Shown: piece by piece, positions 4,591 through 47,828 of the stretch
Numbering within the stretch: position 1 is the stretch's first letter
Layout of the letters: every line of letters begins with the position of its first letter
Source of the DNA: Caprella mutica
Lineage: Eukaryota; Arthropoda; Malacostraca; Amphipoda; Caprellidae
Assembly: GCA_947561585.1 (NCBI GenBank)
Contig: CANNZV010000851.1
Coordinates: 186,001 to 250,000, forward strand
DNA: 64,000 bases
Reading direction: 5' to 3'
Notes under the pieces: model-generated
Database searches by the model: none
Told to the model about the DNA's origin: nothing
What the model saw: the letters and a program-made list of their open reading frames with translations, nothing else
Program-made: the position numbers and the translations under genes

Positions 4591-4596
4591 TTTATT

Positions 4597-5835: not shown

Positions 5836-6170
5836 CAAGAAATTATCCCCGGGATATTCCGGGGAAATTCCCAGGGATTATTCCTTCGATATCTCCAGCG
5901 TTCACGAGGGGATACCCTATTTTGACGTTTTTGCGATATGGGGATATCCCCAAGTGATGTCGAGGGAATAATGATGTGATTAAAAAATATTATCTCTGGG
6001 ATATTCCCTCGATTACAAGGGAAGGTCGAGGAATATCTAAATTATTATTCCCTCGATAACAAGGGAATAAAATTGGGATAGTGAGGGATATTCCCTCAAT
6101 ATGGAGGGGATCAAATGGGAATATTCCCTGAATATTCCCTGGATATCTAGAATAGAGGAAGGATATAGAA
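5836..6170. repeat. GATATTCC-type degenerate repeat block
   Basis: Dense irregular repeats of words such as GGGATATTCCC, TCGAGGGAATA and CTCGATAACAAGGGAATA. The same vocabulary fills both ends of the cassette at 16919-20467 and the block at 33375-33834. No CCC..GCAA terminus is seen here, so this may be a truncated member. Many words are near-palindromic. Confidence 0.75.
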
Positions 6171-6278
6171 ATAAGAATACCAAAATTAATATTTTCCAGC
6201 ATCTGCATATACTACATTTGTACGTGTACGTTTGACTTTACTTGAATTAGTTGAATGTTATATACTAAAATTTATAAA

Positions 6279-15870: not shown

Positions 15871-16407
15871 ACATATATAGAAAAAAAAGAATAACACTAA
15901 ATAGGGGGTGTTAAGAGATTTGATAGTTTTATCAAATATACAGATAAGTTTTAATAGGGATAACTAAGTTAGGATTTTGGACAATCAGGGTAGTGGCAGT
16001 AAATTCCGGTATGACGAGGGCTGTGGTGATCCGAGGAAACAACAAAGAGGAACAGAGTCCATCCTACGAATGAGCAGCCACACATCCGGAACATTTGCAT
16101 ATCTGCCAAAAATCAATCAAGACATATACAAAGATTTCAGAAAAAACAAATTGAAATAAAATAAAAGACAAATTAAGACAAATTTTAACCACAGTAAATT
16201 CAATTTACCTATTATAGCCAAAAACTTGCTCGATACGATGAACCAAGGCGAGGAAGATAGTTCTAAGGTGTATCTCCTATACAGGGTCTAAGAATATGAA
16301 GAAGGTTGGAATTACTGACAAATTAAGTTATGTAAGGAAATTGCAAGTTAACTGACTTATAGTTTAGTTTCATTAATAAGACATGAGTCAACAATCTAAA
16401 GTTAAAT

Positions 16408-16576
16408 TTTAAGTAAAGGATTTTAATAAGTTTAAAGTAAAGGATTTTAATAAGTTAAAAGTAAAGGATTTTCATAAGTTTAAAGTAAAGGATTTTAATA
16501 AGTTTAAAGTAAAGGATTTTAATAAGTTTAAAGTAAAAGATTTTAATAAGTTTAAAGTAAAGGATTTTAATATCTC
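16408..16576. repeat. 24-bp tandem repeat in left LTR, 7 units
   Basis: Unit AGTAAAGGATTTTAATAAGT plus TTAA. The other LTR has 9 units at 40682-40892. The number changed after the two LTRs were made identical at insertion. Confidence 0.9.
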
Positions 16577-16918
16577 CAATGAAATAAATTACTGAGGGTA
16601 AGGGATATTCTGGGGTTCATATTATATTCATAATACATCGAACAGCCCCCAAAGCACACATTGTCCCTAAACATTGTCACTCACTGCGTTATATGGCTGT
16701 TCTGGGAATTTGATCTGGTGTCGCCCATCCTTCGGCACGTCTCATTAGTCCAGTTGGACCCCGGGGTAGTATTTACTCCAGCATTGTAAGGTTACTTTTG
16801 GACAACAAATAGATCCAGTGAATTGGAATGGTTACTGTTAGTTGAAGGTGATGACAGAGCAGCTAGAAGGAACGTCTGTCTGCTGTCGCTGTTGGAAGTG
16901 ATCTGCCTTACGGCGGTT

Positions 16919-17500
16919 CCCGGGCAAGAAGGTTTTATTCCTGGGATATTCCCTTAATATCTACAATATTCCCTCCTAATCTCCATTCTCAGTTTGATGA
17001 TTAGGGGATATTCCTGTAACAATAATATTGGATAGTATTCATGTTCTTATACGAGGGAATATTCCAGGAATAGTGGAGATTTACAGTATTCAGTCAGATA
17101 TCATCCTAGGATATTCAGGGAATATCATATTTCTAAAGTATTCCATACGAAACAAAATGGAATATTCTTGGAATACATATTTTTGATAGTATTCCATTCT
17201 GAATACCCCATAAATTTCCCAAGAATTATCAAGCTAGTTACGTATAATAGTATTCCCCAAAAATATAACGAAGGAATATCCCTGGAACATTTGGGATCTA
17301 CAATATTCTTAGTGAAACAATGACGGAATGTAACAGGAAGCGAATGAAAAATTTTACTTCCTAAGAAATACTTTTGAATATCCCTGGAACTATTTCAATA
17401 TTTTTGATAAGGAATATATCCCATTGGGTTTATATGAAGGAATGCTCCTGGAAGATGGGAAATTTAAAGTATGTATGTCAAACAACGAAGGAATGTCAAT
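16919..17500. repeat. Cassette 1 left GATATTCC repeats
   Basis: Degenerate repeats of GGGATATTCC / GGAATATTCC words beginning within 25 bp of the cassette terminus. Much less regular than the array at the right end, suggesting greater age or repeated rearrangement. Confidence 0.7.
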
Positions 17501-17648
17501 TGAATCGAACGATGATTTTTTTTTATTTCCTTAGAATTTGGATGTCTTCTTGGATCACTAAGAAACTTGGGTTTGTGAGATGAACTGTTGTAATTTGAAT
17601 TTCATATGTTCTTTTCTATTTTTTACCATCTACATAATTTTTAACGCT

Positions 17649-17712
17649 ACTTGTAGTTTTTGAGGATAGCGCAAGAGTTAAGCTCTTCGTCTATAAGGTG
17701 TTAGATTTTGGT
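17649..17712 (+). ncRNA. Possible tRNA-derived SINE head
   Basis: GAGGATAGCGCAAGAGTTAA resembles a pol III A box region, followed about 40 bp later by AGATTTTGGTGTTAGG in the place of a B box. The B box is poor. It looks like an eroded tRNA-related SINE rather than a tRNA gene; no clover-leaf is convincing. Confidence 0.3.
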
Positions 17713-19845
17713 GTTAGGTATGTGCTTCCATTTTCATCTTCCATTCATACAAAACTCCTTCTCGGAGCTTTTCTGCATCCATGAGCTTTGTCACCGACTT
17801 ATAATGTGACTTCTTCTATAAGTCAGTTTCCTTTCTGGCTGCTTCTTTCAGTCTCTTGTATTTCAAAACGTCAGCGTTGTGGCCTTTTGTTCTAAAGCAG
17901 ATACTAAACAACCAAGTAAATTAAAAATATCGCTCTAAATGAATAGAGCTTCGGATCAGTAAATTTAATGCTGGCTCCCTATTAGAAATTAGTAATACCT
18001 ACAAAAATATCTTATTTCGTTTGTATGAAATGCGAAACTTCTAAAAGTTGCGAATCAGGTAGCCAAAATATTTTTTATCCAATTTAGTTTTCGCCTTGCA
18101 GCACTGCAGTTCAGACGTTTTAGACGGGCTATAATAGATAGTAGTTAAATTATTAGTGTCAATTAAAGAAAAAAGAGGTTTGTATTGTGATTGTAAATGT
18201 TTAACGTATGTACACCATTGTTTCATATTTTATCAACAGCAGTTATCACTCGACAATTTTAAATTTTGGTTTAAAGTTAAGTATTGATATCTGGTGATAA
18301 CGGAATAAGACTAGGGTCAAGCATGTAAATTGCGGCACATTAATTAACTAACTGCGGCTTCTAGCAACTGACACATCATATATTCAAAACACACGTTAAA
18401 AACTTAGATTAATAAATTATAGCATCTACTGCGTTCCATTTGATAGCTATGCAACATATTAATGAAATTTTGGTTCAGAATTAAAATGCAATTAAAAATT
18501 GAAATGCTGCAATTTACCGTACTATTGTAGTTCGTAGGCCTATTTCTATTCATATATACTCAGATATACTTTAATTGTAAATGGGTGCACTAAGTTAATT
18601 TATATTACGAAATATTTATAAATATTTAGCTATAACCTAGGTTAAACTTTGTAAGTGAAATATAAAATTTCATAAAATTATTTCTTCAGTGACCTATCCT
18701 TAAACTGACTAGAGTTTAATAATAAAATTTTAAAAGTGCCAATAATGATTTTCAGTGTTAATAATGTTCATAGTAGCTTTTCTTTGTTCATGAGCCCTTT
18801 CTTGTTTTACTTTAATTTGATTTTTTTCACTTTTTTTGACCCATATGGTTTCTCAAAACATTTTTCCTTATCTAATTTTGTATTCCCTTTACTATCTACT
18901 TTTTCATCTTTTAAAATTTGAATTAATCACTTAGGATTTTATTTAATTTATGGATTAACTTATTGAATGCAGATTATTGATAGATGATAATTAATTATTT
19001 TATTTCTTTTTAGGTACCACTGTCACAGTTTCTGGCAATATGGTTTACTAAGAAGTTACAAATCTGGAGACATGTCCTCTTCATTTCGTTTTGTGAACTA
19101 TATAGTATGAAGTGCGTGCACTAAAACTATAGCTGCGCTGACACCACTAGATTCACTTCATTGTCGAGAATATGAAGGAATTTAAGAATAATGACAAAAT
19201 TAAGTTCTCGATTGAATAAATTTGCTCCAGGTTAAAGTAAAGAACCAAATGCAAAAGACTTTGCACTAGTTGTCACACAGGAAAGTAGCTCATAGCAAAT
19301 TACGCTACCACCAATCGATTGTAGTGGTCAATAATTTCGCAAAAAGAGACGAAAGCACTGTTGAGCGTTGATTGCATTAACAGATGGAAGAGGAAAATGA
19401 GAAGGTGATGGTAAATGAAACCTGTGAGCCTTTCTTGACTAAAAATTGAAAACTTTGCAATTGAAAAGTACAACCATAGCGGTATAGAATAAATAAGAAA
19501 TATCTAGTGAAAAATACTGAGAGCTTATAGAATATAGATAAAGTTTCTATAACATGTAAACAAGTTGCCCAGGAATTAGTTTGTGCTTGATTACATTATG
19601 TTCTTTCTAAATCATGTACTATTTAATATTTTAATAAAATGATTGACGTATGTTTAGTTTCTTTCATTTCATCCCAGTACAAAGGGGCAATTGTGGAAAT
19701 GCCTAGATGTAAGTAGTGTGTCCTGTAATTAAAGTGTTAATATTCGTAGATTTTTTATACAGTTATTTGTTCAACTTAAACTTCTTGGTGTATAGCTATG
19801 TGACAATTAAGTTATGCAGTCAAGTGAATAGTGATTCATGGCCAG
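17713..19845. other. Cassette 1 central region, no gene seen
   Basis: AT-rich, apparently single-copy. A strong acceptor-like TTTTATTTCTTTTTAG lies at about 19000-19015, followed by 36 open codons, but no matching donor or homology was seen. A short stretch at 19385-19430 resembles 25785-25835 in cassette 3. Confidence 0.45.
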
Positions 19846-19849
19846 TGAT

Positions 19850-20340
19850 CCCTCTTCTTTTGGAAGTCTTATTTCATTGGTACTTCTTCAATATTCCCTA
19901 TTTCTTTGGATGACTCATTCAAAAGATATCCCTTCAATATTCCCTCTTCCTTTAGATGTCTTATTCCATAGGTAATCCTTCAATATGCCCTTCTCATTTA
20001 GATGTCTTATTCCATAGGTATTCCTTCAATATTCCCTCTTACTTTAGATGTCTTATTCCATTGGTATTCCTTCAATATTCCCTCATCCTTTAGATGTCTT
20101 ATTCCTTCAATATTCCCTCTTGCTTTAGATGTCCTATTCCATATGTATTCCATCAATATTCCCTTCTCATTTAGATGTCTTAGTCCATAGGTATTCCTTC
20201 AATATTCCCTCTTACTTTAGATGTCTTATTCCATTGGTATTCCTTCATAATCCCCTCCATCTATGGATTACTCATTCCATTGGAATTCCTTCATTATTCC
20301 ATTGTGATTCATCTCTGTGATTCCGTAGATTTTCCCTTGT
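19850..20340. repeat. Cassette 1 right array, about 46-bp unit
   Basis: About ten units of CCTTCAATATTCCCTCTTAC followed by TTTAGATGTCTTATTCCATTGGTATT, with variants. Beyond it, GGAATATTCC words continue to the terminus. The period is not strict and some units are shortened. Confidence 0.85.
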
Positions 20341-20623
20341 GACTTATGGGATTATTCCATAAAAGTGTCAAAAAATTGCATTCCCTGAATATCGAAAAAT
20401 TATCATCATGGAATATTCCTTGGGAATATTCCGAGAATGTTTTGGGAATATCCATTTTTTGCGCGGGTTAGTTGTGGCCCAAGTAAGCGCAAAACGCGGA
20501 GTTAGAATGCCGGGATAAGTGATGCGCTTATTTGGGCTGTATTAATGAATAAATATGAAATGATAAAGTTTCATGAGAAGTAAAAATAAAAATAAGAACA
20601 CAAGTAGTGTATATTTTTATACA

Positions 20624-20636
20624 CTCGCCCCAAACG
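20624..20636 (-). promoter_or_regulatory. BEL polypurine tract
   Basis: On the minus strand GTTTGGGGCGAG sits directly before the 3' LTR start TGTATAAA. Purine-rich, in the position where plus-strand DNA synthesis is primed. Confidence 0.6.
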
Positions 20637-20895
20637 GGTTCAAATTGGACAAATTTTAACATACCATGAAAAAGTTTATAGGGAAACTAAACCCTTTCAG
20701 ATTGAAAAAATAAACAAAATAAGCAACTCAAAGGAACGTGCAAATAATGGGTACAAACCAAATTAACGGAACAAAAACAGAACTCAAAAAAGAAAACCTG
20801 CAACTCAACGAAGAAAGGAAAAACATATATATAATAAATTATTTACAATAGCTCTTTATATTTTAATTAAAAAGAGCTCTGGTTCTCTCTTTGCT

Positions 20896-21013
20896 TTACT
20901 GAAAAGCTTTACGTTTCTCAAGCAGTTTTGTAGGAGGAATAACGAGTTCAGAGACAACTTCATCTTCCTTGGCTCTAAGCAGGAGAATAATAGAAGAAGC
21001 ATGCCTCTTGATA
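20896..21013 (-). pseudogene. BEL pol, C-terminal end cut off by cassette 2
   Basis: When the 13658-bp cassette and one TA copy are removed, the pol frame continues here from the integrase segment without a stop for 38 codons and ends in TAA at 20896-20898. Basic residues at the junction fit the C-terminal end of BEL integrase. The rejoining in frame is strong proof that the cassette entered a formerly intact coding region. About 270 bp of 3' untranslated sequence separate the stop from the polypurine tract; I see no envelope-like gene. Confidence 0.85.
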
Positions 21014-21039
21014 CCCAGGCAGCAAAACAACGTCGGTAC

Positions 21040-23475
21040 GACATTGTATTAGCATTGTAACATTGTATCAAGGTCGTCTTGTTGTTTCACAATGTTGTGC
21101 GAACATCGATACAACGTTGTGAATTTAGTCAATCACATATTAACGTTGGCACAACATCGGACGAACATCGAACAACAATGTGAATTAAGTAGATCATTCA
21201 GCAATGTTCGTACAACATCGGATGGACATCAAATAACAATCTGAAATTAGTAGGTCATTCAACAATGTTCGTACAACATCGGATGGACATCGAATAACTA
21301 TCTGAAATTAGTAGGTCTTTCAACAATGTTCGTAAAACATCGGATGGACATCGAATAACATTCTGAAATTAGTAGGTCATTCAACAATGTTCGTACAACA
21401 TCGGATGGACATCGAATAACTATCTGAAATTAGTAGGTCTTTCAACAATGTTCGTACAACATCGGATGGACATCGAATAACAATCTGAAATTAGTAGATC
21501 ATTCAACAATGTTCGTACAACATCGGATGGACATCAAATAACAATCTGAAATTAGTAGGTCATTCAACAATGTTCGTACAACATCGGATGGACATCGAAT
21601 AACTATCTGAAATTAGTAGGTCTTTCAACAATGTTCGTAAAACATCGGATGGACATCGAATAACATTCTGAAATTAGTAGGTCATTCAACAATGTTCGTA
21701 CAACATCGGATGGACATCGAATAATTATCTGAAATTAGTAGGTCTTTCAACAATGTTCGTACAACATCGGATGGACATCAAATAACTATCTGAAATTAGT
21801 AGGTCATTACACAATGTTCGTACAACATCGGATGGACATCAAATAACAATCTGAAATTAGTAGGTCATTACACAATGTTCGTACAACATCGGATGGACAT
21901 CGAATAACATTCTGAAATTAGTAGGTCATTCATTAATGTTCGTACAACATCGGACCAACATCGAATAATAATGTGAAATTAGTAGGTCATTACACAATGT
22001 TCGTACAATATCGGACCAACATCGAATAATAATGTGAATTAAGTAGGTCATTCAACAATGTTCGTACAACATCGGATGGACATCGAATAACTATCTGAAA
22101 TTAGTAGATCATTCAGCAATGTTCGTACAACATCGGATGGACATCAAATAACAATCTGAAATTAGTAGGTCATTCAACAATGTTCGTACAACATCGGATG
22201 GACATCGAATAACTATCTGAAATTAGTAGATCATTCAGCAATGTTCGTACAACATCGGATGGACATCAAATAACAATCTGAAATTAGTAGATCATTCAGC
22301 AATGTTCGTACAACATCGGATGGACATCAAATAACTATCTGAAATTAGTAGGTCATTACACAATGTTCGTACAACATCGGATGGACATCAAATAACTATC
22401 TGAAATTAGTAGGTCATTACACAATGTTCGTACAACATCGGATGGACATCGAATAACATTCTGAAATTAGTAGGTCATTCATTAATGTTCGTACAACATC
22501 GGACCAACATCGAATAATAATGTGAAATTAGTAGGTCATTACACAATGTTCGTACAATATCGGACCAACATCGAATAATAATGTGAATTAAGTAGGTCAT
22601 TCAACAATGTTCGTACAACATCGGATGGACATCGAATAACTATCTGAAATTAGTAGATCATTCAGCAATGTTCGTACAACATCGGATGGACATCAAATAA
22701 CAATCTGAAATTAGTAGGTCATTCAACAATGTTTGTACAACATCGGATGGACATCGAATAACATTCTGAAATTAGTAGGTCATTCATTAATGTTCGTACA
22801 ACATCGGACCAACATCGAATAATAATGTGAAATTAGTAGGTCATTACACAATGTTCGTACAATATCGGACCAACATCGAATAATAATATGAATTAAGTAG
22901 GTCATTCAACAATGTTCGTACAACATCGGATGGACATCGAATAACTATCTGAAATTAGTAGATCATTCAGCAATGTTCGTACAACATCGGATGGACATCA
23001 AATAACAATCTGAAATTAGTAGGTCATTCAACAATGTTCGTACAACATCGGATGGACATCGAATAACTATCTGAAATTAGTAGATCATTCAGCAATGTTC
23101 GTACAACATCGGATGGACATCAAATAACAATCTGAAATTAGTAGGTCATTCAACAATGTTCGTACAACATCGGATGGACATCAAATAACAATCTGAAATT
23201 AGTAGGTCATTCAACAACGTTCGTACAACATCAGACAAACATCGAATAACAATTTGAAATTAATAGGTCATTCAACAACGTTGGAACAACATCGGAAAGC
23301 ATCGAATAACAGTGAATTAGGTAGGTCATTCACCAATGTTGGTACAACATCGTACGAACATAGATTAATATTTTGAATTTAGTAGGTCATCCATCAATGT
23401 TGGTACAATATCGGACGAACCTCTATAACTAATGTGAATTATATTGTTCATTCACCAATTCTATGACACAGCGGA
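21040..23475. repeat. 61-bp satellite array with 305-bp higher-order units
   Basis: About 38 units of GTAGGTCATTCAACAATGTT followed by CGTACAACATCGGATGGACATCGAATAACTATCTGAAATTA. Variant units recur at multiples of five: the variant CGTAAAACATCGG occurs at 21311 and again 305 bp later, and the CGGACCAACATCG pair near 21935, 22487 and 22790 recurs after 9 and 5 units. Units decay at both edges, near the terminus and after 23220. Confidence 0.95.
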
Positions 23476-24184
23476 TGAACATTGCCTGTTTTATCCCCTT
23501 ATTTAATAAAGAGCAATATGTGAAGATTTATATATAATTTTTTTCTGTTTGTAACTTCTTTAGAAATAATAATCAATGTTCATTTAGATGAAATTCGTAA
23601 AGTGGCTACGAGATTTTGTACATAAATGTTTTTTTTTTTAAATAAAGAAGATAAGTAAAGTGTATACGCTTCAACTATAAATATAATTGCCATTGAACAA
23701 TATTATCTATTTGTGAGAAACTGTAGTGTGAGATTTTGAGCACTTAATAAATGCCGTCATTTATGACGGGCACCGGTACACTAGTAATGTAAATCCCACC
23801 TATATAATAAAACCCCAGAAACATTTATTTACTTATTTACTTATTTGCTTATTTATTTATTTATATTTTTTTTTTCCGTAATTTCTCCTATCTAAAAACA
23901 TTAACTAACAATTAAATTTCTTTATGGCAAGCTGTATCATGAATACAGACTGCTAAAATAATAATAATGCAGAGAAATTTTTTCTTCATTTTGGAGTTTA
24001 TAGAAAAATATAAATATTTTGAAAATTATTAATAATAATGTAATCATGATACGCACGGGATTAAATTTAATTATTTAATTCTTATGTTTTTATTTCAATG
24101 AGAGAGTACACTTTTAACGGGTTAAGAGCCAAAATTGAAACTTTGAAACACGTTATTTTTAACGGGAAAATACACTAGTAACAT
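23476..24184. other. Cassette 2 interior, AT-rich
   Basis: No gene. The phrase TACACTAGTAA occurs near 23775 and again near 24170, each after an ACGGG word, hinting at a small duplicated or inserted piece. A TTTA/TTAC microsatellite lies at 23822-23870. Confidence 0.45.
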
Positions 24185-24589
24185 CCCAGCAAACATGAAT
24201 GTATCTATTCGATGTCTATACGACTCTGTGAAACCTCTCTTCCGACATCGAATACCAGTAACAAATTAGACATGGTGACATCAAGTAGACATCAAACCGA
24301 TATCCGTTTGCACCGCTAAACCGCATCACATCAAGTATATTTGGCATCGAAGCGATACCGTTATACAGCGTTGAATAGAAAGATAAATTACGACATCCAA
24401 CATACATAGGGATTCTCCATCGAACAGACGCCTAATTATATATCTAATATGCTTCGAAACGATATCCACTTGCATCCAATAAATAAATAAATTAAAATTG
24501 AAAACCTTTACTTCAATGATATAACGTACTGTACGTTTAGATGCATATCAATTTGATTAATTTTACATAATGTTATATATAAATTAAAT

Positions 24590-24685
24590 GGGAAGAAATG
24601 AAGTGACGTGTCCGGGTATCGTTCGTGGGTCCAACCATCGTCGTGCCTGTAGCTCTGTCCCTTTGCCACCGTGAATGCATTTGAC
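24590..24685 (-). mobile_element. tRNA-like SINE remnant, copy 1
   Basis: Read on the minus strand it has a loose A-box-like region, a B-box-like CACGAACGATACCC and the tail CACTTCATTTCTTCCCATTTAA. The tail matches the second copy at 50775-50865. The promoter boxes are degraded. Confidence 0.45.
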
Positions 24686-25589
24686 TAAAAAATTTTTGAT
24701 ATTAAACTACCCGGAGATACTTGAAGATATTTTAAAGTGAATAGAACAATATATACAAGCACCGCTTTTATAACCAAAATCACAACTTATTCTTATTACA
24801 AATAGTAATGAGTTGGTCATATTTTTATAAAATTGTAACTCCTTGAAAATTTGGTTCTCTATGAGTTCAAATTAAAGAAAATGTTTAGAGGCCACGACTT
24901 AGAATAAAGATGAAAGCTCTGTGATGAAAGTTCAAAGTAATGAATGCATTAATTAAAATTTGACCATAGATTAACTCTCACTCAGTAAATATAGGTCATA
25001 ATAGTTGAGTAATTAGTCTGATATTTTGACTTATATAATTGTGTTTCATTGAACAATCAGGAATTTTGTGCTCTGTGAAATATTTTTAGCAATAGGGTAT
25101 ATGTTCCAAGTTATTAATAGGGTCTATATTTTTTTGAACACGTGATAAAGGAAAATATAATCATTATTATTAAACCACTATTTAATTAGTAACATAATAG
25201 CTGAAGGTATGATACCATTTGAAATAAAAGTTAAATAATAGGTAGTTATTATATATAGATTTATTGAGTCCGATTATCACTTTAAGTTTGATGATCTATA
25301 ATGTGAATCACTGAATTTTAATAGTCTCATTTGCAGCTTTTGGCACTAGGTGAAAGCTCAAGTTATCGGATATGGGGTTCCGCATTTTACGTAGAAAAAT
25401 TATTTATGTATTAATTTCTATTTCTAAACTTGTATTTTACGTACTGGTATCATGGATACCAATTTAGGTAAGAATTTAATAATGATAATTATTATATTTA
25501 TTTCTTACATATTCGAAAATGTGGAACCGTCCGATAACAGAGAATTTACTCTAAAATGGAACATGTTAAATAGCCCACCAACTTTTAAT

Positions 25590-26260
25590 TATTGACGTTA
25601 AGTAGAGGTTTAACCAGAGGCCATGTCACTGACGTCAAAAGGAAATGAAATACAAGGGACTGGAAGAAGCAGTCAGAAAAGAAAGTGGCTAGATGGACAA
25701 AGTCACGAAGCTTATGGATGCTGAAAAGCTACTCCGTGATTGCTGTCACTTACCTAGTAATGTGGCTGCACTCAAGGAAGGAAGAGGGAAATGAAGAGGA
25801 GAGGTGATAGTAAATGAAATCTACGAGCCTACCTAACACAAAATCTAAGACCTCGTACGTAATTGTAGAGCGCTATCCTCTTAAACTGCATGGAGAGTTA
25901 AAAACACTATATACATGGTAAATATAAAATAGACAATACATAATCCAAACTACAACAGTTTGGACGCCACCCCCTTCTCTTCTATTCACCAATGACAGCT
26001 TCAGGAGCCCCTCCGGGCTTATTTACAATAAGCAGTTTAGATAGATTCATCACATTAAATGCAGCCATCGAAAAATCACTTGATTGGTTATCCATTTCGT
26101 TTTCACAGTACTGGAGGAACATTGTTCAACAACCGATGTTCCAATATCGCTTACTTTTCGTTGATCCAGTTCACAATCGCACCAGCGTGCCAATGCTCAA
26201 TCGTAAACTTACAACTGCCGTAGTCCCCTATAAGTGTATTAATTATTGGGAATAGTTTAA
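25590..26260. other. GC-richer patch in cassette 3, no gene assigned
   Basis: An 87-codon frame at 25992-26255 (plus) is open but has no recognisable motif. Part of the patch (25785-25835) is similar to 19385-19430 in cassette 1, both reading around AGGTGATRGTAAATGAAA then GAGCCT, so a small repeat is shared. Confidence 0.3.
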
Positions 26261-26789
26261 AGGGAGCACTACATATGTTATATAGAAAGCTACAATCCAA
26301 TTGAATAGAAATTATTCTTACATTTCTATACGTATTATAAAACAGGAAGATAAGAAAATGAATTTCCAAATTTGAAACGATTTTTTAAAACTACGTATCG
26401 GTTTTCGCACTTCTGGTCGAAGTATAAATTCATATATCGTTTGGAAACAGACATGCTGACGTCAAGATGATGCTGTTAAAACCATGAATAGGTTTTCGTG
26501 TTTCTACTCGGAGTGTAAATTCAGATATCATTTAGAAATAGACATTCTGATATCTACTATGAGTCGAAATGGTTGCTAAGTCGATACCCACCGTTAGCGC
26601 TACGAATTCGACAGCAAACGGCATCGAATCGACATTCATATGTTTGTTGGGATATAATATATCATTTAATAACGTTAGTAGAAGATCTGACAGGCATTAG
26701 TAAGCAAGGAGAATTTGCTTGATTTTATTATGTAATTTTACAACAGCATTTTAACATACGGTACTTTATAGTGATGCGATTCTAGTAGT

Positions 26790-27234
26790 CTGATAGTACA
26801 TTATCACATGGTCTCTTTTCTCTTATAGTACATCATCACAGTGACTCTTTTCTCTGATAGTACACCATCGCAGTGACTCTTTTCTCTGATTGTACATCAT
26901 CACAGTGACTCTTTTCTCTGATAGTACACCATCACAGTGACTCTTTTCTCTGATAGTACACCATCACAGTGACTCTTTTCTCTGATAGTACACCATCACA
27001 GTGACTCTTTTCTCTGATAGTACATTATCACAGTGACTCTTTTCTCTGATAGTACATCATCACAGTGACTCTTTTCTCTGATAGTACATCATCACAGTGA
27101 CTCTTTTCTCTGATAGTACATCATCACAGTGACTCTTTTCTCTGATAGTACATCATCAAAGTGACTCTTTTCTCTGATAGTACATCATCACAGTGACTCT
27201 TTTCTCTGATAGTACATCATCACAGTGACTCTTG
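26790..27234. repeat. 32-bp tandem array, 14 units
   Basis: Unit CTGATAGTACATCATCACAG followed by TGACTCTTTTCT. Units are almost identical, with single-base changes such as CACCATC or CATTATC, so the array is recent. The first unit at the left is the most divergent. Confidence 0.95.
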
Positions 27235-27359
27235 AAATATAATAGCTGAAACTAAATTATCAGATAGGTAATATTTAAAAATAATAGTTAATAAATAACA
27301 ACTAGATAATTAACGTATACATCTTTTTTTATTTCTTTAGGTACCTGTTTTGTTATACA

Positions 27360-27780
27360 ATTATTCAAAAAGGGATATTGCGTCATTTCTTTGTTTAAAA
27401 ACAATGAAGCTGCAACACTGCTAACCTATCCGAATTCCTGCAATTTACAGTCAGTGTTAGTTTTCGGAAAAAATAGGGTGAAACATGACAGAATAAATAA
27501 CAATTATAAATCCAAATGCATATAAACTATATTTATTTTTAATATACGTAGATATTATTCTTTTGTTTTCTCTCTGTCATTAGAAAATTATTATTCAACT
27601 GTAGATTGCGACATTTCTTATGCTATAAACAGTGGAATGGCAACACCGCTTTATAACCGTTTTCCCGCTTTTCGAAATAGCGTTCAGTTTTCAGCCGAGA
27701 TCAATGTGAATCATTTCGATCTGTGTTACTTCATCTGCTACAAAACTTCTTGTGTTAAAACCTAGAAAAAATATTTAAAA
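27360..27780 (+). promoter_or_regulatory. Possible promoter region, partly duplicated
   Basis: Two similar stretches, near 27378-27480 and 27608-27690, share ATTGCG-CATTTCTT, then AAACARTGGAA, then GCAACAC-GCT, and end in GTTAGTTTTCGG or CAGTTTTCAGCC. The second leads into the small ORF at 27788. Insect core promoters often carry TCAGTT at the start site, and CGTTCAGTTTTCAG would fit. This is a structural guess only. Confidence 0.25.
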
Positions 27781-27787
27781 AGCAATT

Positions 27788-27896
27788 ATGTCTCTTAGGA
27801 ACTATTATAAAATAAAAAAATCTTGTAGTGACTTTGCAAGTGAACTTTTAAGTGAAAATGCTCTTCCTCTCTTCTCGGACTCCCAAGACAATAGGT
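27788..27896 (+). CDS. Small ORF or first exon of unknown product
   Basis: ATG then 35 more codons (start MSLRNYYKIKKSCSDF, end LPLFSDSQDNR) before TAA. The stop lies in a good splice-donor context, AATAG|GTAACC, so this may be a first exon. Downstream, near 27945-28022, another frame reads VDVHSLNEHLSKRCSTNFSD, which looks coding but needs frame changes to connect. Base composition is higher in GC than its surroundings. It may be the 5' end of a decayed transposon gene inside cassette 2. Product not recognised. Confidence 0.3.
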
Positions 27897-28114
27897 AACC
27901 CTGTCATTGAACAAAGTGAGAATATTATGAAAACAACACTGAAAATAATGTTGATGTGCACTCATTGAATGAACACCTTTCAAAGAGGTGTTCCACAAAT
28001 TTTTCAGATCAACCAGATAAATAAGCAGTCATGATACGGTGATACATACCATCATCATCATACCTGTAACCTATTCAGTGTACTAGTTATCTAAATGTGT
28101 GTATGTGTCTTGCT

Positions 28115-30801
28115 CCAGTTTGTATTTGGTGCACTGAACTACTCTGATTTTTTCAAAAATCTGATAGGTAGTAAATAGGTAGGTAGCTGCCAACATTTTT
28201 CATCAATTTGTCTAGGTACCTAGTCCTTCAACATTTTTCCAGTTTCTCCTCCAAAAATTAATGGTAATACCTAGGTATATGAATTACCTAATATCTACCT
28301 AGCTAAATATCCTCCATCATTGCAGGAATTTCTTTATTAGAGAAATTGAAGCTATCTCTCGAGATATCTTTGAAATTTACCACCAAATACAATCTGGGTC
28401 TTGCTTCCATACTCTTATAAATTCATAATTTTTCCATTAGGTACTCAGTCTGTATTTGGCAATCTGAACTCTGAATTAAATTTGATAGGCTAACTTAGAT
28501 GAAAACTCGGTCTGTATTTGGGCTTGGCCCAGACTCCCAGTCTGTATTTCGTGGTAAATTCCACCGAAAAATAGGTGCTTTCTGTAAAAAGTCAGTGGAA
28601 TTTTTTGCACCAAATACAGACCGGGACTTGGCGATGAACTCTACTAATTATTCCTAGAATTTAGGTCAGAATGTATTTTTTCAGAATTTTTCCCCTCTGT
28701 GTCTGATAATATTATTCTAGCCACCCAAGGTCCCAGACCCAAGGTGGTGGATTTTTAGCTATACCTATTTATTCCCCAGTCTGTATTTCGGTGGAATTTT
28801 TTCCCCTTTAAAAATAATATTGTGACAAAGTCTTTTGATTTTTAGCTATTTATTCCTATGTTACCATTAATTTTTGATGGATAAATTGTGAAAATGTTGG
28901 TGGATCAGCCAAATTACTGGAAATTTATGGTGGATTTTTTCAGCTTTTTTGAAAAAGTCAGTGGGATTTTGTGCACCACCAGTTTGTATTTGGTGCACTA
29001 AACTCCTCTGACTTTTTCAAAAATCTGAGAAATAGCTGCCAACACTTTTCATCAATTTGTCTAGCCCTCCATCATTTTTCCAGTTTCCCCTCCAAAAATT
29101 AATGGTAATATAGGAATTAATAGCTAAATATCCTCCGACATTGCAGGAATTTATTTATTAGAGAAATTGAATATCTCCCGATATATCATTGGAATTTACC
29201 ACCAAATACAATCTGGGTGCACCAAATACAAATTAGTTTATTCTTATGATATAATGATACCATTAATTGTTGGTGGATTAATAAAGAAAATGTTGGTTGA
29301 TCCCGAATCTTGATCTGTATTTGGTTCACAAAGTCTCACTGAGACACTGACTTTTAAAAAAACTGAAAAAATCCAACATAAATTTCCAGTAGCTAATTGA
29401 CTAATTCAGCTGATCCACCAAGATTTTCTCAATCTATCCACCGTAATGAATGGTACCTAACATTCTAACATAGGAATAAATAGTTATTAGGGTGGGTAAG
29501 TTCCGTGTTATCGCACGATTCCATATTTTCAAACACGTAAAAATCTTTATATAATAATCATTATTCAACTTTTATTTCAATTGGTATCCATGATACCAAT
29601 TAGAATAGAAGTTAAATAATAATTATAGAGATCTACCAACTTTCCAAGTAGCTAATAAAAAAAAGCATGTCCAAACTCGCCATTTTAATGGCGATTTTGT
29701 GACAGTTATTTTGAGCCCTTCAATTGCAAATGGCGAGTTTTATCTATTTTTCTCCTATGCTACAATACATGTTTTAAAGTATGGACAAAGTCGCCACTTG
29801 GCACTTGCCAGTATATTGGCAACTTTTGAGGGTTTAAATGAGTTGAAAAACATGTAAATAACGATTAAATCACTCCCAAAACAGTCTCAAGAGATGCACA
29901 TGCATCAGACTAAGAGCATAAACTGCACAATGATGTTTCCAAGTGTAAAATCTTTAGTAGAGAGTCAAATTTCTCCTTTAAATTATCTTAAATGTGGCGA
30001 CCTTGTTCCATTTTTTCACTAAACTTTTGACTTTCCTGCCACACCTTGAAACATGGACTACAATGTTATTTTGGAGAGAATTTATGAAAAATTTATCATT
30101 TTGGAGAGAATTTGTTGAATTTTGGAGAGAGCTGGAGAGACAAATGGCGAGTTTATGAGAGATGCTATTTTACTTGGCCGGGCGACTTTGCCAGAATATT
30201 ATTTTCAAAGGGGCTAAATTCTAGTGACGATGACCCCAGTCTGCAGAATATGGGATGTTTTTAACATTTTCTATGCGAACAATTCCTAATTTCCTCCTAT
30301 ATTTACATGTATTTTACATTTCTACTGAGAAAAAGTCTAAATATTATAATATAGAGGATTTCTTGGAGAACAGTTTACCAGTTCCTGCAGTCGCCAGTCT
30401 GGAATTCTACTGACATATCGATGAAATTTACCATAAAATATAGACTGGATTTAGGTTAGATCAGCCAAATTAAAATTATTGCAAATTCTTAGTGAATTTT
30501 TTAACCTTTTTAAAAAAAGTCAGTGGGATTTTGTGCACCAAATACACCAAATTGTATTTGATGATAAATTCCAATGATATGACGACAGATATTCAATTTC
30601 TCTAATAAAAAAATTCCTGCAATATCGAAGGATATTTAACTATTAATTCCTATATTAAAGTATATTATCATTAATTTTTGAAGGGGAAACTGGAAAAATG
30701 TTGGAGGATTAGACCAGTCACTAATTGATGAAAAATGTTGGCAGCTATTTCTCAGATTTTTGAAAAAGTCAGAGGAGTTCTGTGCACCAAATACAGACTG
30801 G
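28115..30801. mobile_element. Palindromic module region with CCAGTCTGTATTTGG words
   Basis: A module of 240-285 bp starting CCAGTYTGTATTTGGTGCAC occurs at 28115-28400 (+), 28979-29218 (+) and 30550-30801 (-), so the outer copies are inverted and give the region inverted ends. A second module is at 28846-28963 (+) and 29345-29483 (-). At least eight further short copies of AGTCTGTATTTSG or its complement are scattered within. No coding frame. It looks like a foldback-type element or several rounds of nested insertion. The flanks show no obvious duplication. Confidence 0.65.
29680..30200. repeat. Scattered TGGCGA / TCGCCA words
   Basis: Within the palindromic region, short words such as AATGGCGAGTTT, AATGGCGATTTTG, AAGTCGCCACTTGGC and GGCGACTTTGCC recur in both orientations. 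No fixed period. No gene. Confidence 0.4.
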
Positions 30802-30999
30802 ATTTTTGAATACTGAAGCCAGTGTGCATTTGAATGATTTGATGATCATTTCAACTGATATTTGGGAAGATTGAACTAAACTTCAGAAATATTCTATTTT
30901 GATCATTCATATATTTACAGATTAATTTGGTGTTTTCCTTTATATATTTACTTTCAGTCCATTCTTTTATTGCAGTCAATTATCTTTTAACAAGTAACC

Positions 31000-31800
31000 A
31001 AGTTTGTTCTTTTTTTGCAACATTGTAATTTGACTTTGTAAATTACTCAATTTAGATAATATCAATCCATTCTTTTTGCAACATTGGAAGTTACTTAATT
31101 TACTCTCAGTCTGTTCTTTTTGCAACATTGTAAGTTACTTAATTTACTCTCAATCCATTCTTTTTGCAACATTGGAAGTTACTTAATTTACTCTCAGTCT
31201 GTTCTTTTTGCAACATTGGAAGTTACTTAATTTACTCTCAATCCATTCTTTTTGCAACATTGTAAGTTACTTAATTTACTCTCAGTCTGTTCTTTTTGCA
31301 ACATTGTAAGTTACTTAATTTACTCTCAATCCATTCTTTTTGCAACATTGGAAGTTACTTAATTTACTCTCAGTCTGTTCTTTTTGCAACATTGTAAGTT
31401 ATTTAATTTACTATCAGTCCATTCTTTTTGCAACATTGGAAGTTACTTAATTTACTCGCAGTCTGTTCTTTTTGCAACATTGTAAGTTATTTAATTTACT
31501 ATCAGTCCATTCTTTTTGCAACATTGGAAGTTACTTAATTTACTCTCAGTCTGTTCTTTTTGCAACATTGTAAGTTACTTAATTTACTATCAGTCCATTC
31601 TTTTTGCAACATTGGAAGTTACCTAATTTACTCTCAGTCTGTTCTTTTTGCAACATTGTAAGTTATTTAATTTACTATCAGTCCATTCTTTTTGCAACAT
31701 TGGAAGTTACTTAATTTACTTACCTCAGTCTGTTCTTTTTGCAACATTGTAAGTTATTCAATTTACTATCAGTCCATTCTTTTTTGCATCATTGGAAGTT
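31000..31800. repeat. 44-bp array with 88-bp dimeric higher-order unit
   Basis: Two types alternate: type A has TCCATTCTTTTTGCAACATT then GGAAGTTAC; type B has TCTGTTCTTTTTGCAACATT then GTAAGTTA. They alternate A-B-A-B over about 18 monomers, so the amplified unit is the 88-bp dimer. Small exceptions occur, such as an extra TTAC near 31720. Confidence 0.93.
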
Positions 31801-32345
31801 AATTAATTAACTGTATTATACTTTTAAAAAGTATCTGGTATCAACTTGGTATTGGTATCGGTTGCCAGAATTTTAAAGTAACTGTAATTGGTAATGGTAT
31901 CGGTTACTAATATGATATCGGTGCATATCTACTTATTTACTATCAGTCCATTCTTTTTTGCAACATTGGAAGTTAATTAATTAACTGTATTATACTTTTA
32001 AAAAGTAACTGGTATCAGACTTGGTATTGGTGTCGGTTACCAGAATTCTAAAGTGACTGTAGCTACTTGGTACTGGTATCGGTTACTAATATGATATCGG
32101 TGCATATCTACTTATTTACTATCAGTCCATTCTTTTTTGCAACATTGGAAGGTAATTAATTAACTGTATTATACTTTTAAAAAGTAACTGGTATCAGACT
32201 TGGTATCGGTGTCGGTTACCAGAATTCTAAAGTGACTGTAGCTACTTGGTACTGGTATCGGTTACTAATATGGTATTGGTGCATCTCTAATTAATTTACG
32301 ATTAGTCTGTTCTTTTTTGCAACATTGGAAGTTATTTAATTAACT
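31760..32345. repeat. About 180-bp tandem units, three copies plus a partial
   Basis: Each unit opens with the type A monomer of the adjacent array (TCAGTCCATTCTTTTTTGCA) and continues AATTAATTAACTGTATTATA, AAAGTAACTGGTATCAG, GGTATCGGTTACTAATATG and GTGCATATCTACTTATTTAC. So the 88-bp array and these longer units share a seed. Starts near 31760, 31940 and 32120, then a fragment at 32295. Confidence 0.85.
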
Positions 32346-33370
32346 ATCGGTCTGTTTTTTTTTTCACATACAAATATCTTTCAATCAGTTAGATTATCAA
32401 AGAAATTGTCTGATTATTATGCCTAGCTATTGCTTATTGGTGAACTTATGATTAATTTATTAATTCAAGTAGCTATCATTATATAATTGTATTTTTATGT
32501 ATATAAATGTATGAAATCAAAATTTTGTTTATATGCTGTTCAGGGTTTATCAAGGTAGGTTTCCTCCAAAGTGGGAAACTGAAAACCATTTGGGGGAATC
32601 CTAAATTAGCTATTCTTATTACTTATCCAAGGACTTTATGATGTCTGTATCCTCCTTTGATTTATAATTAATAATTACTTTACCAATCAACATAGCTAAA
32701 ATTCCACTTGACTTAGCTAGAATATTACTCTTAAAGGGAAAAAATTCCATTTACAAGTCACAGTTGGTGGAATTTACCATGAATTATAGTCTGGGCTATG
32801 TCTAATCTAAACGACTGAATGCGTTTTGCAATGTCTGTTAACGTTTCTTGTAATTATTCAATTTACTTATACAGATGAAATACATTTTGTTTTTATTAAA
32901 TACTTCTATTCATTTGAATAGTGATAACAGTTTAAATTATTTTGCATGTGTAAGGTGTTGGTGGAAATGCTCCTTGTACTACTTAATTTCTATTTTAATC
33001 CTTAATGAAGATCTAAATGTTAATTATCCTTTTTATTTCAGTTATGATCCTTGATGTCTGTATTCTCAACACCCATCAGCATGGCTGCTCCACCCCACTC
33101 AACAGCAAATAGAATGGCGAATGTAGCTACATCTTATCGACACCTTGATATGACATCGATAGTCCTACTGCAGGAGAGATAAATGTAAGATGATGCACAT
33201 TCAATGATTAACAGCCTTGGTGCTCATGATGTAACCTATTGAGATCCATGGTACCTTGTCTGTTGTTATTTGTGTACATCTCTTAACTGAACTACTAGCA
33301 GTTTCTTCATGAAATCACACATCTCTTGATATATTTCACTTGATAAGTGTAAGTATTTATTGCAACAAGC
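32346..33370. other. Cassette 2 interior, mostly unique
   Basis: AT-rich to 33030, then a GC-richer patch at 33042-33260 preceded by a strong acceptor-like TTTTTATTTCAG. Frames in that patch are short (22 codons from an ATG near 33045). Could be a terminal noncoding exon; not supported further. Confidence 0.35.
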
Positions 33371-33374
33371 ATTA

Positions 33375-33834
33375 TATGCATCCCCTTGAAATCGAGGGAA
33401 TATCCATTCACTTTCATATTTCCATTCCCTCGTTAATGAGGGGATAACTGTTTTGATATTCCCTTTCTCTTCCCCTAGGGAAGATTCCAGGAATATTTAT
33501 ATTTTAATTCCCTCTTGTTCCCCTTGATATCGAGGGAATATCCATTCACTTTCATATTTTTATTCCCTTGTTAATGAGGGGATAACTGATTTGATATTCC
33601 CTTTCTGTTCCCTTGATATCCAGGGAATATTTATATTTTTATTCCCTCTTGTTCCCCTTGATATCGAGGGAATATCCATTCACTTTCATATTTTCATTCC
33701 CTTGTTAACAAGGGGATAACTGTTTTGATATTCCCTTTCTGTAGAGTTGATATTGAGGCAATATTGTGTATGATATTCCCCAATATTGACACAATATTGG
33801 GGCAATATTGTCCTAATAATTTTTGCTTCGTGGG
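33375..33834. repeat. GATATTCC block ending in a cassette-type right terminus
   Basis: Three units of 130-140 bp with CCCTTGATATCGAGGGAATA, then TCCATTCACTTTCATATTT, then ATTCCCTYGTTAAYRAGGGG. The block ends ATTTTTGCTTCGTGGG, which resembles the right end of cassette 1 (TTTTTTGCGCGGG). Beyond it, the AACGTTG-type repeats of cassette 2 resume. It is likely another cassette nested here, but I could not find its left terminus. Confidence 0.7.
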
Positions 33835-34063
33835 CCTCGTTTGAAAATGATGAAACAACAATGTTTCAACGTTGGGTAGCAACGTTGTATTAACCTTGTC
33901 AAATTATGTCTATCCTACGTCGCAGTCGAACGTTGGCACTATGTTGTTTCAACATTGTAACAGTGTCGTTTGGAAATGACGAAACAACATTGTTTCAACG
34001 TTGAATTAACAACGTAGTTTTAACCTTGTGTTTTAATGTCTAAACAAAGTCGTAATCGAACAT
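33835..34063. repeat. About 125-bp units of AACGTTG type
   Basis: Two degenerate units with TCGTTTGRAAATGAYGAAAC, AACAWTGTTTCAACGTTG and GTCGYARTCGAACRTTGGCA. They run into the 194-bp units and use the same vocabulary. Confidence 0.8.
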
Positions 34064-34647
34064 TGGCACGATGTTGTTTCGTCATTGTATCAACATTGTA
34101 CAGATGTCGGAACCCAAACATAAGTTTGGCAACCAACGTAGTTCGAATGTTGTCTTTCGACGTCGTATTTTTTTCCAAAAACCGACAATCAGACAACGTT
34201 GAAAACTGATGTTGTACCAACGTTCATACAACCAATAAACGATGCTCAGCCAACATCATGACGACGTTGTTTTGTCATTGTATCAACATTGTACAGATGT
34301 CGGAAAACAAACATAAGGTTGGCAACCAACGTTGTTCGAATGTTGTCTTTCGACGTCGTATTTTTTTTCCAAAAACCGACAATCAGACAACGTTGAAAAC
34401 TGATGTTGTACCAACGTTCAGACAACCAAGAAACGATGCTCAGCCAACATCGTGACGACGTTGTTTTGTCATTGTATCAACATTGTACAGATGTCGGAAA
34501 ACAAACATAAGGTTGGCAACCAACGTTGTTCGAATGTTGTCTTTCGACGTCGTATTTTTTTTCCAAAAACCGACAATCAGACAACGTTGAAAACTGATGT
34601 TGTACCAACGTTCAGACAACCAAGAAACGATGCTCAGCCAACATCGT
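34064..34647. repeat. 194-bp tandem repeat, three units
   Basis: Units at about 34064, 34258 and 34452. The second and third appear identical over 194 bp, the first differs at several sites. Each contains many CAACGTTG-like words (CCAACGTTGTTCG, GACAACGTTG, CCAACGTTCAGACAACC, ACGACGTTG). Each of the last two gives an identical 65-codon frame, a by-product of duplication. The array abuts the right terminus of cassette 2. Confidence 0.95.
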
Positions 34648-34671
34648 GACGACGTTGATTTGCTGCTTGGG

Positions 34672-36427
34672 TAGTCTCCCTGGTAGACCCCTTCATCAGT
34701 ACAGCTCCGGTAGATTCACCAAGGTCATTTAAGGTGACCTCTTTTACAACTGCCATGGGATACTGCGTAGGTTTGTGATGCTGTTCCTTTAGAAGAACAA
34801 TATCACCAATCTCTAATGGCTGGTGCTTAATTGGACTGTATCGATCCTTCTTGTCAACAGCCTGATTAATTAAATTGACAAGAAACTCCTCGTTGTGTTT
34901 CTTAACAAGTACGCTACGGACTTTGGACAGTTTCTTGTAAGTAGTTCGCAACCTCTCCAAGGGATCTGCATTGGGACACCAATCTGGATCAACATCCTTT
35001 TCTGCAACATAAGGAATCAAATTAACAGATGGAAATGAATGGCCGTATATTAACGAGTCTGGAGTAATTGAACTTGGAAGAGTGTCACCCATATCTCCGC
35101 GCAAACACTCTTTGAACGCAATAGGGCGTTTGTTAGCCAAGCTAACAGTTTGCGCTACAACAAATTCGAACTGCTCAATGAGTAGCACCTTATTTCTCAC
35201 TGACCCAAATATCAATATTTTTACCTGCTTAACCAGACTTTCCACTAAAGAACCTAGAGCACTGTTACCCTTATAATACTGGTTAAATTCAGGAAACTTC
35301 ACGTGGTTTTCTTTCAGATATTGGGACATCTGTTGAGTTTCCGCAAATTCATTGATAATCTTCGATCCAGCTACCAATTGGCTTCCTAAATCTGAAAAAA
35401 TTCTCTTAGGCAATCCAAACCTGAAAACGTGTAATTGAAGTGCTCTCAAATATTCTTCTACAGACAAATCACTACACACAACAAGATTTACAGCTCGTGA
35501 CCACATACATGTGACACACAAAACATAGGATTTTACTCTACTTCCACTTGATTCTTTGGTATTGAAAGGTCCAATGTGATCAAAAAACACATCCGCAAAT
35601 GGAATCTCTGCTGGTGAGAGTCGAAAATCTCTATAGGGGCTTTGGTTTAATTTGATTGTTCGTTGACCAAATCTCCTACAATGAACACAACTTCTTAGAA
35701 CCTTTTCAACACAAGAATAATAATGGGGAATCCAATATTTCTTCCGTAATTCAGACAAAACCGAATAAACTCCAGCGTGTGCAAATTTTTCATGCGCATG
35801 TCTAATAATGAGTTCAGTCAAATGCCCGGCCTTTGACAAAAGAATCGGGCAGTGTGAATTAGAACTAAATTTACTGTTTTTAGACAACTTACTGCCAACT
35901 CTAATTAAGCCATTATTATCGATAAAAAGGTTCATTTGATTAATTATGTTAGGAATTTCCTTATGACATCTATTAGAAACTTGAAAGTTTGATAAAACAT
36001 CTGCAAAATATAAACTTTGTTCGTCCCTAATCAATGTCATCAAAGCCTTATCGTAGATTTCCTTCTCATTATAACCAGAGTCAGGACTAATACATCTCTT
36101 TAAATTTGAAAGAAATTTAAATGTATTCTCAACAATAGTAATAAGTTTACCTAATCTAGATACCTTAGAAGTATCTATCAGAGGGTCATGAACATGAACT
36201 TCACTTACCCCCACAGAAAACTCTACCGTATCAACACTGGTACTACCTGGTACAGAGAACGTGAGGATATCCGATCTGCTGACATCTGGTTGCTTTGCTC
36301 TCAGGAAGCTAGGTCCTGTCAAATAGTTACTTTTAATTAATAATTTATAAGAGACAGGCCTAGATATAGAATCAGCAGGGTTTGATATCCCATCGACAAA
36401 GGAAAAAGTTATCGGATGAACTTCAGT
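34672..36427 (-). pseudogene. BEL pol: integrase region
   Basis: The frame is open from the nonsense codon at 36428 down to cassette 2; its first ATG is at 36322. It joins viral-type DNA to the host chromosome. Seen in order: an H-H-C-C zinc domain (HAHEKFAHAG ... CVHC), the DDE core (FFDHIGPF with the first Asp, SDLGSQ with the second, LVESLVKQVK with the Glu) and a C-terminal domain with LEIGDIVLLKEQ, the DUF5641-like end typical of BEL/Pao. The last 12 codons before the apparent stop at 34634 come from cassette 2. The true end lies at 20896. The frame itself has no internal stop. Confidence 0.9.
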
Positions 36428-37189
36428 CTACTTCTCTAAACATTTCAGTCTATTCATAACAAACACAGATTGTTTGTTCATTTTGTTGAACTTCTGAAAA
36501 TAGCCATTGATCCAATTAAGGGATACTAAACTGTCCGTATATACATACAAATTTGATATATCAATGGGGTTCATACAAGCTAGACCAGTTAACTCCTTGT
36601 ACAAATCAACAAGAGCTTCTGCTGCCAGAACTGCTGACATTAACTCCAATGCTGGTATGCTCTTGTCCTCAAGTTGTTTTGACACCATTCTGTTTTTAGC
36701 GATAACAAAGCTAACCTCTTTAGTGGACTTGTTTTGAATGTAGATAACAGTGCCATACATTTGTTTACTACTATCACAAAAAGCGATCAAATCATAGGAA
36801 GCATCTCTACTGCCCAATAATCTTGGTACAATCATCGGTTCCGCTTCATTAACTTGCTTACAAATGTTATGCCATTCGTTCTTCTTTTCCTTGGAAATTA
36901 CCGTATCCCAGCTAAGTTCCTTCTGCAACTGTAATTCGTGCAAAAATATCCTAGCCCTGTTCATAATAGGACCATCATAATTGTATGGATCGAAATTTTC
37001 TGCAATAGACTTCAGGATTTTCCTCTTTGTGTCCGCATCTTCATTCAGAATTTTCTTTTTGGTAGACAGTGTCCTTTTTCTTATTCCAAATAAGACCAAA
37101 TAGCTCAACCTCTTCTTGAGAAACCTTTTCATCAATCGGAAGAACCTTCTGCATTTCAGCATTATTTCTACAGAACTGTTGTAATTCAA
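36428..37189 (-). pseudogene. BEL pol: end of reverse transcriptase and RNase H
   Basis: This frame takes over from the reverse transcriptase frame in the overlap at 37041-37189. It carries the linker (NFDPYNYDGP) and RNase H with its acidic residues visible: AFCDSSKQMYG (Asp), IPALELMSAVLAAEAL (Glu) and YVYTDSLVSLNWI (Asp). The enzyme removes the RNA strand from RNA:DNA hybrids. It ends at a TAG (36428-36430) that is in the same frame as the integrase segment, so this is a single nonsense change and the frame beyond it is intact. Confidence 0.88.
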
Positions 37190-40008: not shown

Positions 40009-40127
40009 ATCACGAACAAGGTAAATAAATAGGGAAAAATTAGTCTGAAATAAATTAAATTAGGAACATAGGAGATCCGACTGAACATAAACAAGCCAAA
40101 GAACGACGACCCAGATCACCACCAGAA

Positions 40128-40145
40128 CCCTAAATTTGGGCGCCA
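40128..40145 (-). promoter_or_regulatory. BEL primer-binding site
   Basis: On the minus strand TGGCGCCCAAATTTAGGG starts directly after the 5' LTR. TGG at the start pairs with a tRNA CCA end. TGGCGCCCAA is common at this place in BEL elements. The tRNA cannot be named with certainty. Confidence 0.75.
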
Positions 40146-46326: not shown

Positions 46327-46328
46327 TA

Positions 46329-46424
46329 AACTGCGTCCATCGCTTTATTGCAGATCACTATTTAGTGAATAATTTTAATAATATTGATCGTACAGTAGTG
46401 AAACTTTGGTCACTGGAAGATTGC
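46329..46424 (+). repeat. Foldback left terminal repeat
   Basis: About 95 bp nearly identical to the reverse complement of 47734-47828. It contains TCACTATTTAGTGAATAATT and GATCGTACAGTAGTGAAAC. Confidence 0.88.
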
Positions 46425-47733: not shown

Positions 47734-47828
47734 TAATCTTCCAGTGACCAAAGTTTCACTACTGTACGATCAATATTATCAAAATTATTCACAAAATAGT
47801 GATCTGCAATAAAGCGATGGACGCAGTT
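47734..47828 (-). repeat. Foldback right terminal repeat
   Basis: Inverted partner of 46329-46424, with only a few differences, indicating that the outer ends are under recent homogenisation or selection for transposition while the inner arms drifted. Confidence 0.88.

Follow-up and report, generated by a model that had tools for sequence, protein, structure and literature searches.

In 2006 DeMarco et al. reported from Schistosoma mansoni the element SmTRC1, which together with related animal elements has ends that begin with CCC (PMC1636069). According to the available part of that paper, 2-bp direct repeats were present in 7 of the 14 TRC copies examined, empty sites were recognized in LTR retrotransposons, and the elements have a tandem-repeat region and a Transposase_21 domain. 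Two insects, Aedes aegypti and Tribolium castaneum, harbor TRC members, and insect members have the ends CCCAGTCAAC and CCCTAGTAGCACC... (PMC1636069, same part). An element from Hydra, Spongebob_HMa / EnSpm-4N1_HM, with the end CCCAGCCAACATTGAC and 2-bp duplications, is also put in the TRC branch (excerpt of PMC4298943). In plants the CACTA element Jozin from Chenopodium is 16.5 kb long, has subterminal repeats and contains a captured satellite array (excerpt of PMC8978399). Arrays inside such elements are thus already in print, both for SmTRC1 (PMC1636069) and for plant CACTA (PMC8978399), and transposons as sources of satellites have been reviewed (PMC9659126).

The window considered here is a stretch of 64,000 nucleotides from the amphipod Caprella mutica (contig CANNZV010000851.1, positions 186,001 to 250,000); by base counts it is AT-rich (31% GC) and eukaryotic. 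It contains three repeat-filled cassettes, which we regard with good confidence as non-autonomous members of the CACTA (En/Spm) superfamily, in its animal TRC branch, mobilized by a putative partner transposase. Their borders and flanks, listed below, are on direct reading those given by an earlier sequence-only reading of the window (TT/TT, TA/TA and AT/AT).

16919..20467, no strand: cassette 1, non-autonomous insertion, 3549 bp, ends CCCGGGCAAG...TTTTGCGCGGG
16917..16918, no strand: left target duplication of cassette 1, TT (GGTT at most)
20468..20469, no strand: right target duplication of cassette 1, TT (GGTT at most)
21014..34671, no strand: cassette 2, non-autonomous insertion, 13658 bp, TIR CCCAGGCAGCAAAACAACGTCG / CCCAAGCAGCAAATCAACGTCG
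21012..21013, no strand: left target duplication of cassette 2, TA
34672..34673, no strand: right target duplication of cassette 2, TA
24185..26651, no strand: cassette 3, probable insertion nested in cassette 2, 2467 bp, flanks AT/AT

Two insertions into one retrotransposon

Cassettes 1 and 2 interrupt a retrotransposon with the following parts.

15875..20623, minus strand: LTR of the host retrotransposon, interrupted by cassette 1 (aligned to the second LTR)
34634..40059, minus strand: gag/pol frames of a BEL/Pao-type retrotransposon (from the ORFs; the listed frame enters cassette 2 from 34671 down to 34634)
40145..41390, minus strand: second LTR, the empty site for cassette 1 (self-BLAST and LTR alignment)

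The pol frames match Integrase_H2C2 with 43.1 bits (cut-off 25.5) and have 114 homologues, the closest named ones being from the crustaceans Macrobrachium, Palaemon and Hyalella. The homologues carry the domains PF05380, PF17921 and PF18701, which we take to be the mark of BEL/Pao and on which the group name of the retrotransposon is based. The two LTRs are 98.2% alike (1176 matches and 22 mismatches in 1198 aligned bases, with 48 gap columns). Both contain the same 24-bp tandem array, with 7.1 copies at 16403-16572 and 9.1 copies at 40673-40890.

The empty site that the sequence-only reading had proposed to look for is found, for cassette 1, within the window itself: when cassette 1 and one TT are removed, the joined flanks align to the second LTR without a gap at the join, and self-BLAST places the breakpoints at 16918/20466. 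Since GGTT is present in both flanks and also in the empty LTR, the duplication can be 2, 3 or 4 bp long.

Cassette 2 splits pol within the DUF5641 region, and the frame continues over the join with one TA kept. Because only this length keeps the frame, the duplication is exactly 2 bp (TA). The 214-residue joined tail is matched by 102 of the 114 homologues (E 1e-3), 85 of which align over at least 10 residues beyond the join, 72 of these 85 having no gap within 20 residues around it; as to the others, 15 end at most 10 residues from where the alignment stops and 2 extend further, unaligned. Upon joining the flanks the DUF5641 profile match grows from positions 3-67 to 3-93 of 94 and its score from 18.6 to 22.9 bits, both under the cut-off of 23.1.

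Cassettes 1 and 2 are therefore real insertions into the retrotransposon that took place after its integration, cassette 1 by its empty site and cassette 2 by the restored pol frame, and the earlier description of mobile insertions with short target duplications holds for both. Both landed in one recently integrated BEL/Pao-type retrotransposon, and the third is probably nested inside cassette 2. The uniform duplication of 2 bp proposed for all three is exact for cassette 2 and one of the lengths possible for cassette 1; for cassette 3 it consists of the AT flanks alone.

The ends of the cassettes

Each read inwards, the ends are CCCGGGCAAGAA / CCCGCGCAAAAA in cassette 1, CCCAGGCAGCAAAACAACGTCG / CCCAAGCAGCAAATCAACGTCG in cassette 2 and CCCAGCAAACATGAATG / CCCAACAAACATATGAATG in cassette 3. 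On direct reading all six start with CCC. From the proposed common motif, CCC[AG]GCAA / TTGC[CT]GGG, the CCC part thus stands and the remainder as written was too loose a summary: in a motif search of the window CCC[AG]GCAA occurs once, at the left end of cassette 3, and TTGC[CT]GGG does not occur.

Chance similarity was assessed by scoring the gapped similarity of the ends for the 1874 CCC...GGG pairs in the window with a spacing of 0.5-20 kb and equal 2-bp flanks. Cassette 2 scores 22, cassette 3 scores 18 (a gapped similarity over about 36 bases) and cassette 1 scores 11. The top pair over 100 simulated windows scored 17.5, so that none of the 100 had a pair at 18 or above; in an earlier set of 40 simulations, 3 windows had a pair scoring at least 17. 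A score of 11 is at chance level, simulated windows having on average 15.1 pairs at or above it. We therefore rejected the ends of cassette 1 as evidence by themselves, and the case for this cassette rests on its empty site.

Two unrelated pairs in the window outscore cassette 3. One (46680/47529, score 28) sits within a longer inverted repeat; the other (28536/32795, score 21.5, flanks CT) lies in the repeat-rich middle of cassette 2. These pairs, the weak end words of cassette 3 (see below) and its lack of an empty site would fit with cassette 3 being a part of cassette 2, with borders alike by chance or from another inverted repeat. We consider this unlikely, as the score of cassette 3 was reached in none of the 100 simulated windows and its left end is, among all the cassette ends, the closest to a published TRC end. 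Cassette 3 as a separate insertion is thus likely rather than demonstrated, there being no empty site for it.

As separate observations, the 28536/32795 pair may mark a further nested element, and 46327-47830 is another element-like structure, with inverted arms of about 505 bp that are 76% alike.

Family assignment

The coding scan comprised 78 stop-free stretches of at least 45 amino acids, 23 from cassette 1 and 55 from 23480-33830 (cassette 3 included), the terminal arrays of cassette 2 being left out. None of the 78 ORF fragments in this scope reached a curated Pfam cut-off; the lowest E-values belong to PssL (0.0021, a match of 9 residues within an array) and to a zinc ribbon (0.003, at 18.3 of 30 bits). 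The sequence-only reading had noticed no recognizable transposase, and the domain search agrees with it over the same 78 fragments, terminal arrays of cassette 2 excepted. No tRNA was found, and no Rfam family reached its gathering score. Since no fragment reaches a Pfam cut-off, we read the cassettes as non-autonomous TRC elements that are moved in trans.

The same reading had held that the plan of the cassettes fits no known superfamily. This did not survive comparison with the literature: CCC termini and 2-bp duplications are, in the available parts of PMC1636069 and PMC4298943, the published mark of animal TRC elements, so that the features taken for those of a new class are TRC marks. Probably, therefore, the cassettes are not a new transposon class but new, unnamed members of the TRC type. 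At the level of titles and starts of abstracts, the literature searched contains no report of these exact elements.

SmTRC1 and the cassettes have in common the CCC inverted ends, the 2-bp duplication, internal tandem repeats and copies in LTR retrotransposons (excerpt of PMC1636069). SmTRC1 differs in its inverted repeat of 54 bp and in coding for a Transposase_21 protein, whereas in the cassettes no such coding was seen and the ends are shorter and less alike (compared with the same excerpt). The Hydra element shares with the cassettes the CCC start and the 2-bp duplication and, at about 5.8 kb, is like them without an intact transposase frame; elsewhere it differs, the comparison being limited to the end printed in the excerpt of PMC4298943. 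This end, CCCAGCCAACATTGAC, resembles the left end of cassette 3 in 12 of 16 positions, which only 2 of the 576 CCC sites of the window reach (both strands, cassette 3 itself included), and contains CAACATTG, the word of cassette 2 (PMC4298943, same excerpt). The left ends of cassettes 2 and 3 agree with the mosquito TRC end in 8 of 10 positions, as do 6 of the 576 CCC sites in total. With the beetle TRC end no cassette end stands out among the CCC sites of the window, and the ends of cassettes 1 and 2 agree with the Hydra end in 7-9 of 16 positions, no better than many CCC sites.

That beyond CCC the ends of cassettes 1 and 2 show no special likeness to published TRC ends, and that the 78 ORF fragments (terminal arrays of cassette 2 left out) yield no transposase, is what would be expected of a new superfamily of satellite-carrying DNA transposons, with a transposase unrelated to CACTA and with convergent CCC ends and 2-bp duplications. 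We hold this to be very improbable, because CCC termini, varied 2-bp duplications and internal tandem repeats are found together in one published lineage, insects included (available part of PMC1636069).

Several known groups were considered and rejected. Tc1/mariner elements strictly duplicate TA; the duplication of cassette 1 is TT to GGTT. The duplication of hAT elements is 8 bp long, as compared with 2 bp at cassette 2 and at most 4 bp at cassette 1. Helitrons and Helentrons insert between host bases with no target duplication; cassette 2 duplicates exactly TA. Plant-type CACTA elements have CACTA ends and 3-bp duplications; the cassettes have CCC termini and cassette 2 duplicates 2 bp. 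ISL2EU, of the PHIS superfamily, is like the cassettes in its 2-bp target duplication but unlike them in that this is always AT and the termini are usually GG (excerpt of PMC4482050); cassettes 1 and 2 have TT and TA, and CCC termini. Plavaka has, in the excerpt available, the termini TGT or CATCA and a 2-3 bp duplication, and was rejected on its termini. ESTA and PHISTA duplicate TA and are, in the part of the source available, reported from rust fungi. An origin from one of these 2-bp groups (Tc1/mariner, ISL2EU, Plavaka, ESTA/PHISTA) would agree with the TA of cassette 2 and the AT of cassette 3, but the join of cassette 1 is TT, or GGTT at most, and never TA or AT; together with the termini and targets just given this makes such an origin extremely improbable.

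Searches in other genomes gave no match to the 61-bp array pattern of cassette 2 (see below) in viral contigs and one match in each of 8 bacterial contigs to a near variant of it; the end pattern of cassette 2 matched no viral contig and that of cassette 3 matched 12. Cassettes 1 and 2 had no BLAST match among the collected loci, and the bacterial and viral pattern matches were therefore taken as chance.

For the TRC-type reading, we infer mobilization in trans, binding of the enzyme (or of a helper) to the repeated words and growth of arrays from these words, as follows. A putative enzyme of the Transposase_21 type, with its gene at another place in the genome, would bind both to the CCC ends and to the repeated words directly inside them. 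It would excise the element and reinsert it at AT-rich targets of varied sequence, with a stagger of 2 bp; slippage or unequal exchange would then make the arrays grow out of the binding words.

Repeat words and arrays

The following arrays lie in cassettes 1 and 2.

19849..20300, no strand: 46-bp tandem array near the right end of cassette 1
21151..23415, plus strand: 61-bp tandem array, left subterminal in cassette 2, 37 units with 41 CAACRTYG words
31060..32345, plus strand: 44/88-bp and 179-bp arrays in the middle of cassette 2, 19 CAACRTYG words
33837..34662, plus strand: 130/194-bp arrays, right subterminal in cassette 2, 27 CAACRTYG words

Both ends of cassette 1 carry GAATATYCC words (16919-17600 and 19831-20467), with a density of 10.3 and 6.3 per kb; in the flanking window the density is 0.41 and 0.03 per kb. 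The word CAACRTYG occurs 97 times in the window (both strands): 45 times in 21014-23490, 20 times in the middle of cassette 2 and 27 times in 33832-34671. Cassettes 1 and 3 are free of it, and the remaining 5 lie in the 46 kb outside. By word density, subterminal repeats at both ends and in both orientations are thus present in cassettes 1 and 2 and are weak in cassette 3; repeat words directly inside the termini, proposed earlier for all three cassettes, are clear in the first two only.

An unbiased test compared the 7-8-mers common to both ends with 500 control placements in three settings. Controls equalled or exceeded the observed value in 10, 54 and 64 of the 500 placements for cassette 1, in 7, 240 and 135 for cassette 2 and in 149, 229 and 179 for cassette 3; the excess over controls is thus partial and the result mixed over the three settings.

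When the 51 tandem-repeat rows of the window were merged into 31 arrays, CAACRTYG was found in 3, all in cassette 2 and with different monomers, the other 28 being without it. That three different arrays of cassette 2 share the word suggests binding words that have grown into satellites. Selection for many sites would then grow arrays of unrelated monomers round an octamer (for cassette 2 CAACRTYG, for cassette 1 GAATATYCC) and insertion would scatter them; that a TRC transposase-binding word seeds satellites in this way is a speculative proposal, which we think unlikely to hold.

The arrays could instead be host satellites captured by the elements. There is a precedent in plant CACTA elements with a 171-bp satellite array inside, a similar monomer being present in arrays outside such elements in another species (excerpt of PMC8978399), and the 32-bp array at 26789-27233 of cassette 2 is without CAACRTYG. 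Against capture, one octamer is common to the three arrays in spite of their different monomers and is present also in the unique end sequence outside the arrays, and the 61-bp array is best conserved, among its 61 windows, at the 21-nt window with the paired words (95.9% mean identity). We regard capture as doubtful.

Jozin and cassette 2 are alike in being long elements with subterminal repeats and an internal array; Jozin differs as a plant element that ends in CACTA, duplicates 3 bp and encodes its own transposase (available part of PMC8978399). The arrays of cassette 2, at both ends and in the middle, are more extreme than the TRC descriptions in the available part of PMC1636069.

Other repeats in the window

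Cassettes 1 and 3 have in common a collinear module of about 430 bp (17500-17928 and 25581-26078, in opposite orientation), which gives BLAST pieces 71 and 74% alike and lies about 660-1000 bp inside one end of each; either common descent or a shared captured repeat can account for it. A small near-palindromic repeat is present in cassette 3 (25412-25549) and in the middle of cassette 2 (29496-29626), 77% alike, and a repeat family of about 250-290 bp occupies 28114-30802, also in the middle of cassette 2, in both orientations.

A GGGAATATCC-like repeat block at 33371-33831, which resembles the words of cassette 1 and ends with TTTTTGCTTCGTGGG, has the appearance of another cassette's right end. 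A search for a fourth nested cassette, with TTTTTGCTTCGTGGG at 33831 as its end, gave no partner end, and this candidate was dropped. Outside the cassettes, repeats of the GGAATATTCC type at 5847-6180 are 70-78% alike to 33380-33734 in reverse orientation.

A frame of 396 amino acids at 1057-2247 matches DUF659 with 53 bits (cut-off 34.7) and is probably the relic of a hAT-type transposase. A long hairpin, self-complementary at 90% over 424 bp, lies at 4593-5016 and has a relative at 51603-51877.

Implications

If the TRC-type reading holds, the window contains two sharply dated TRC-type insertions with clean footprints, both younger than LTRs that are 98.2% alike. The octamer common to three arrays makes the birth of satellites from transposase-binding words a testable question. 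Were it true, transposons would turn their own recognition code into new satellite families and spread these by insertion.
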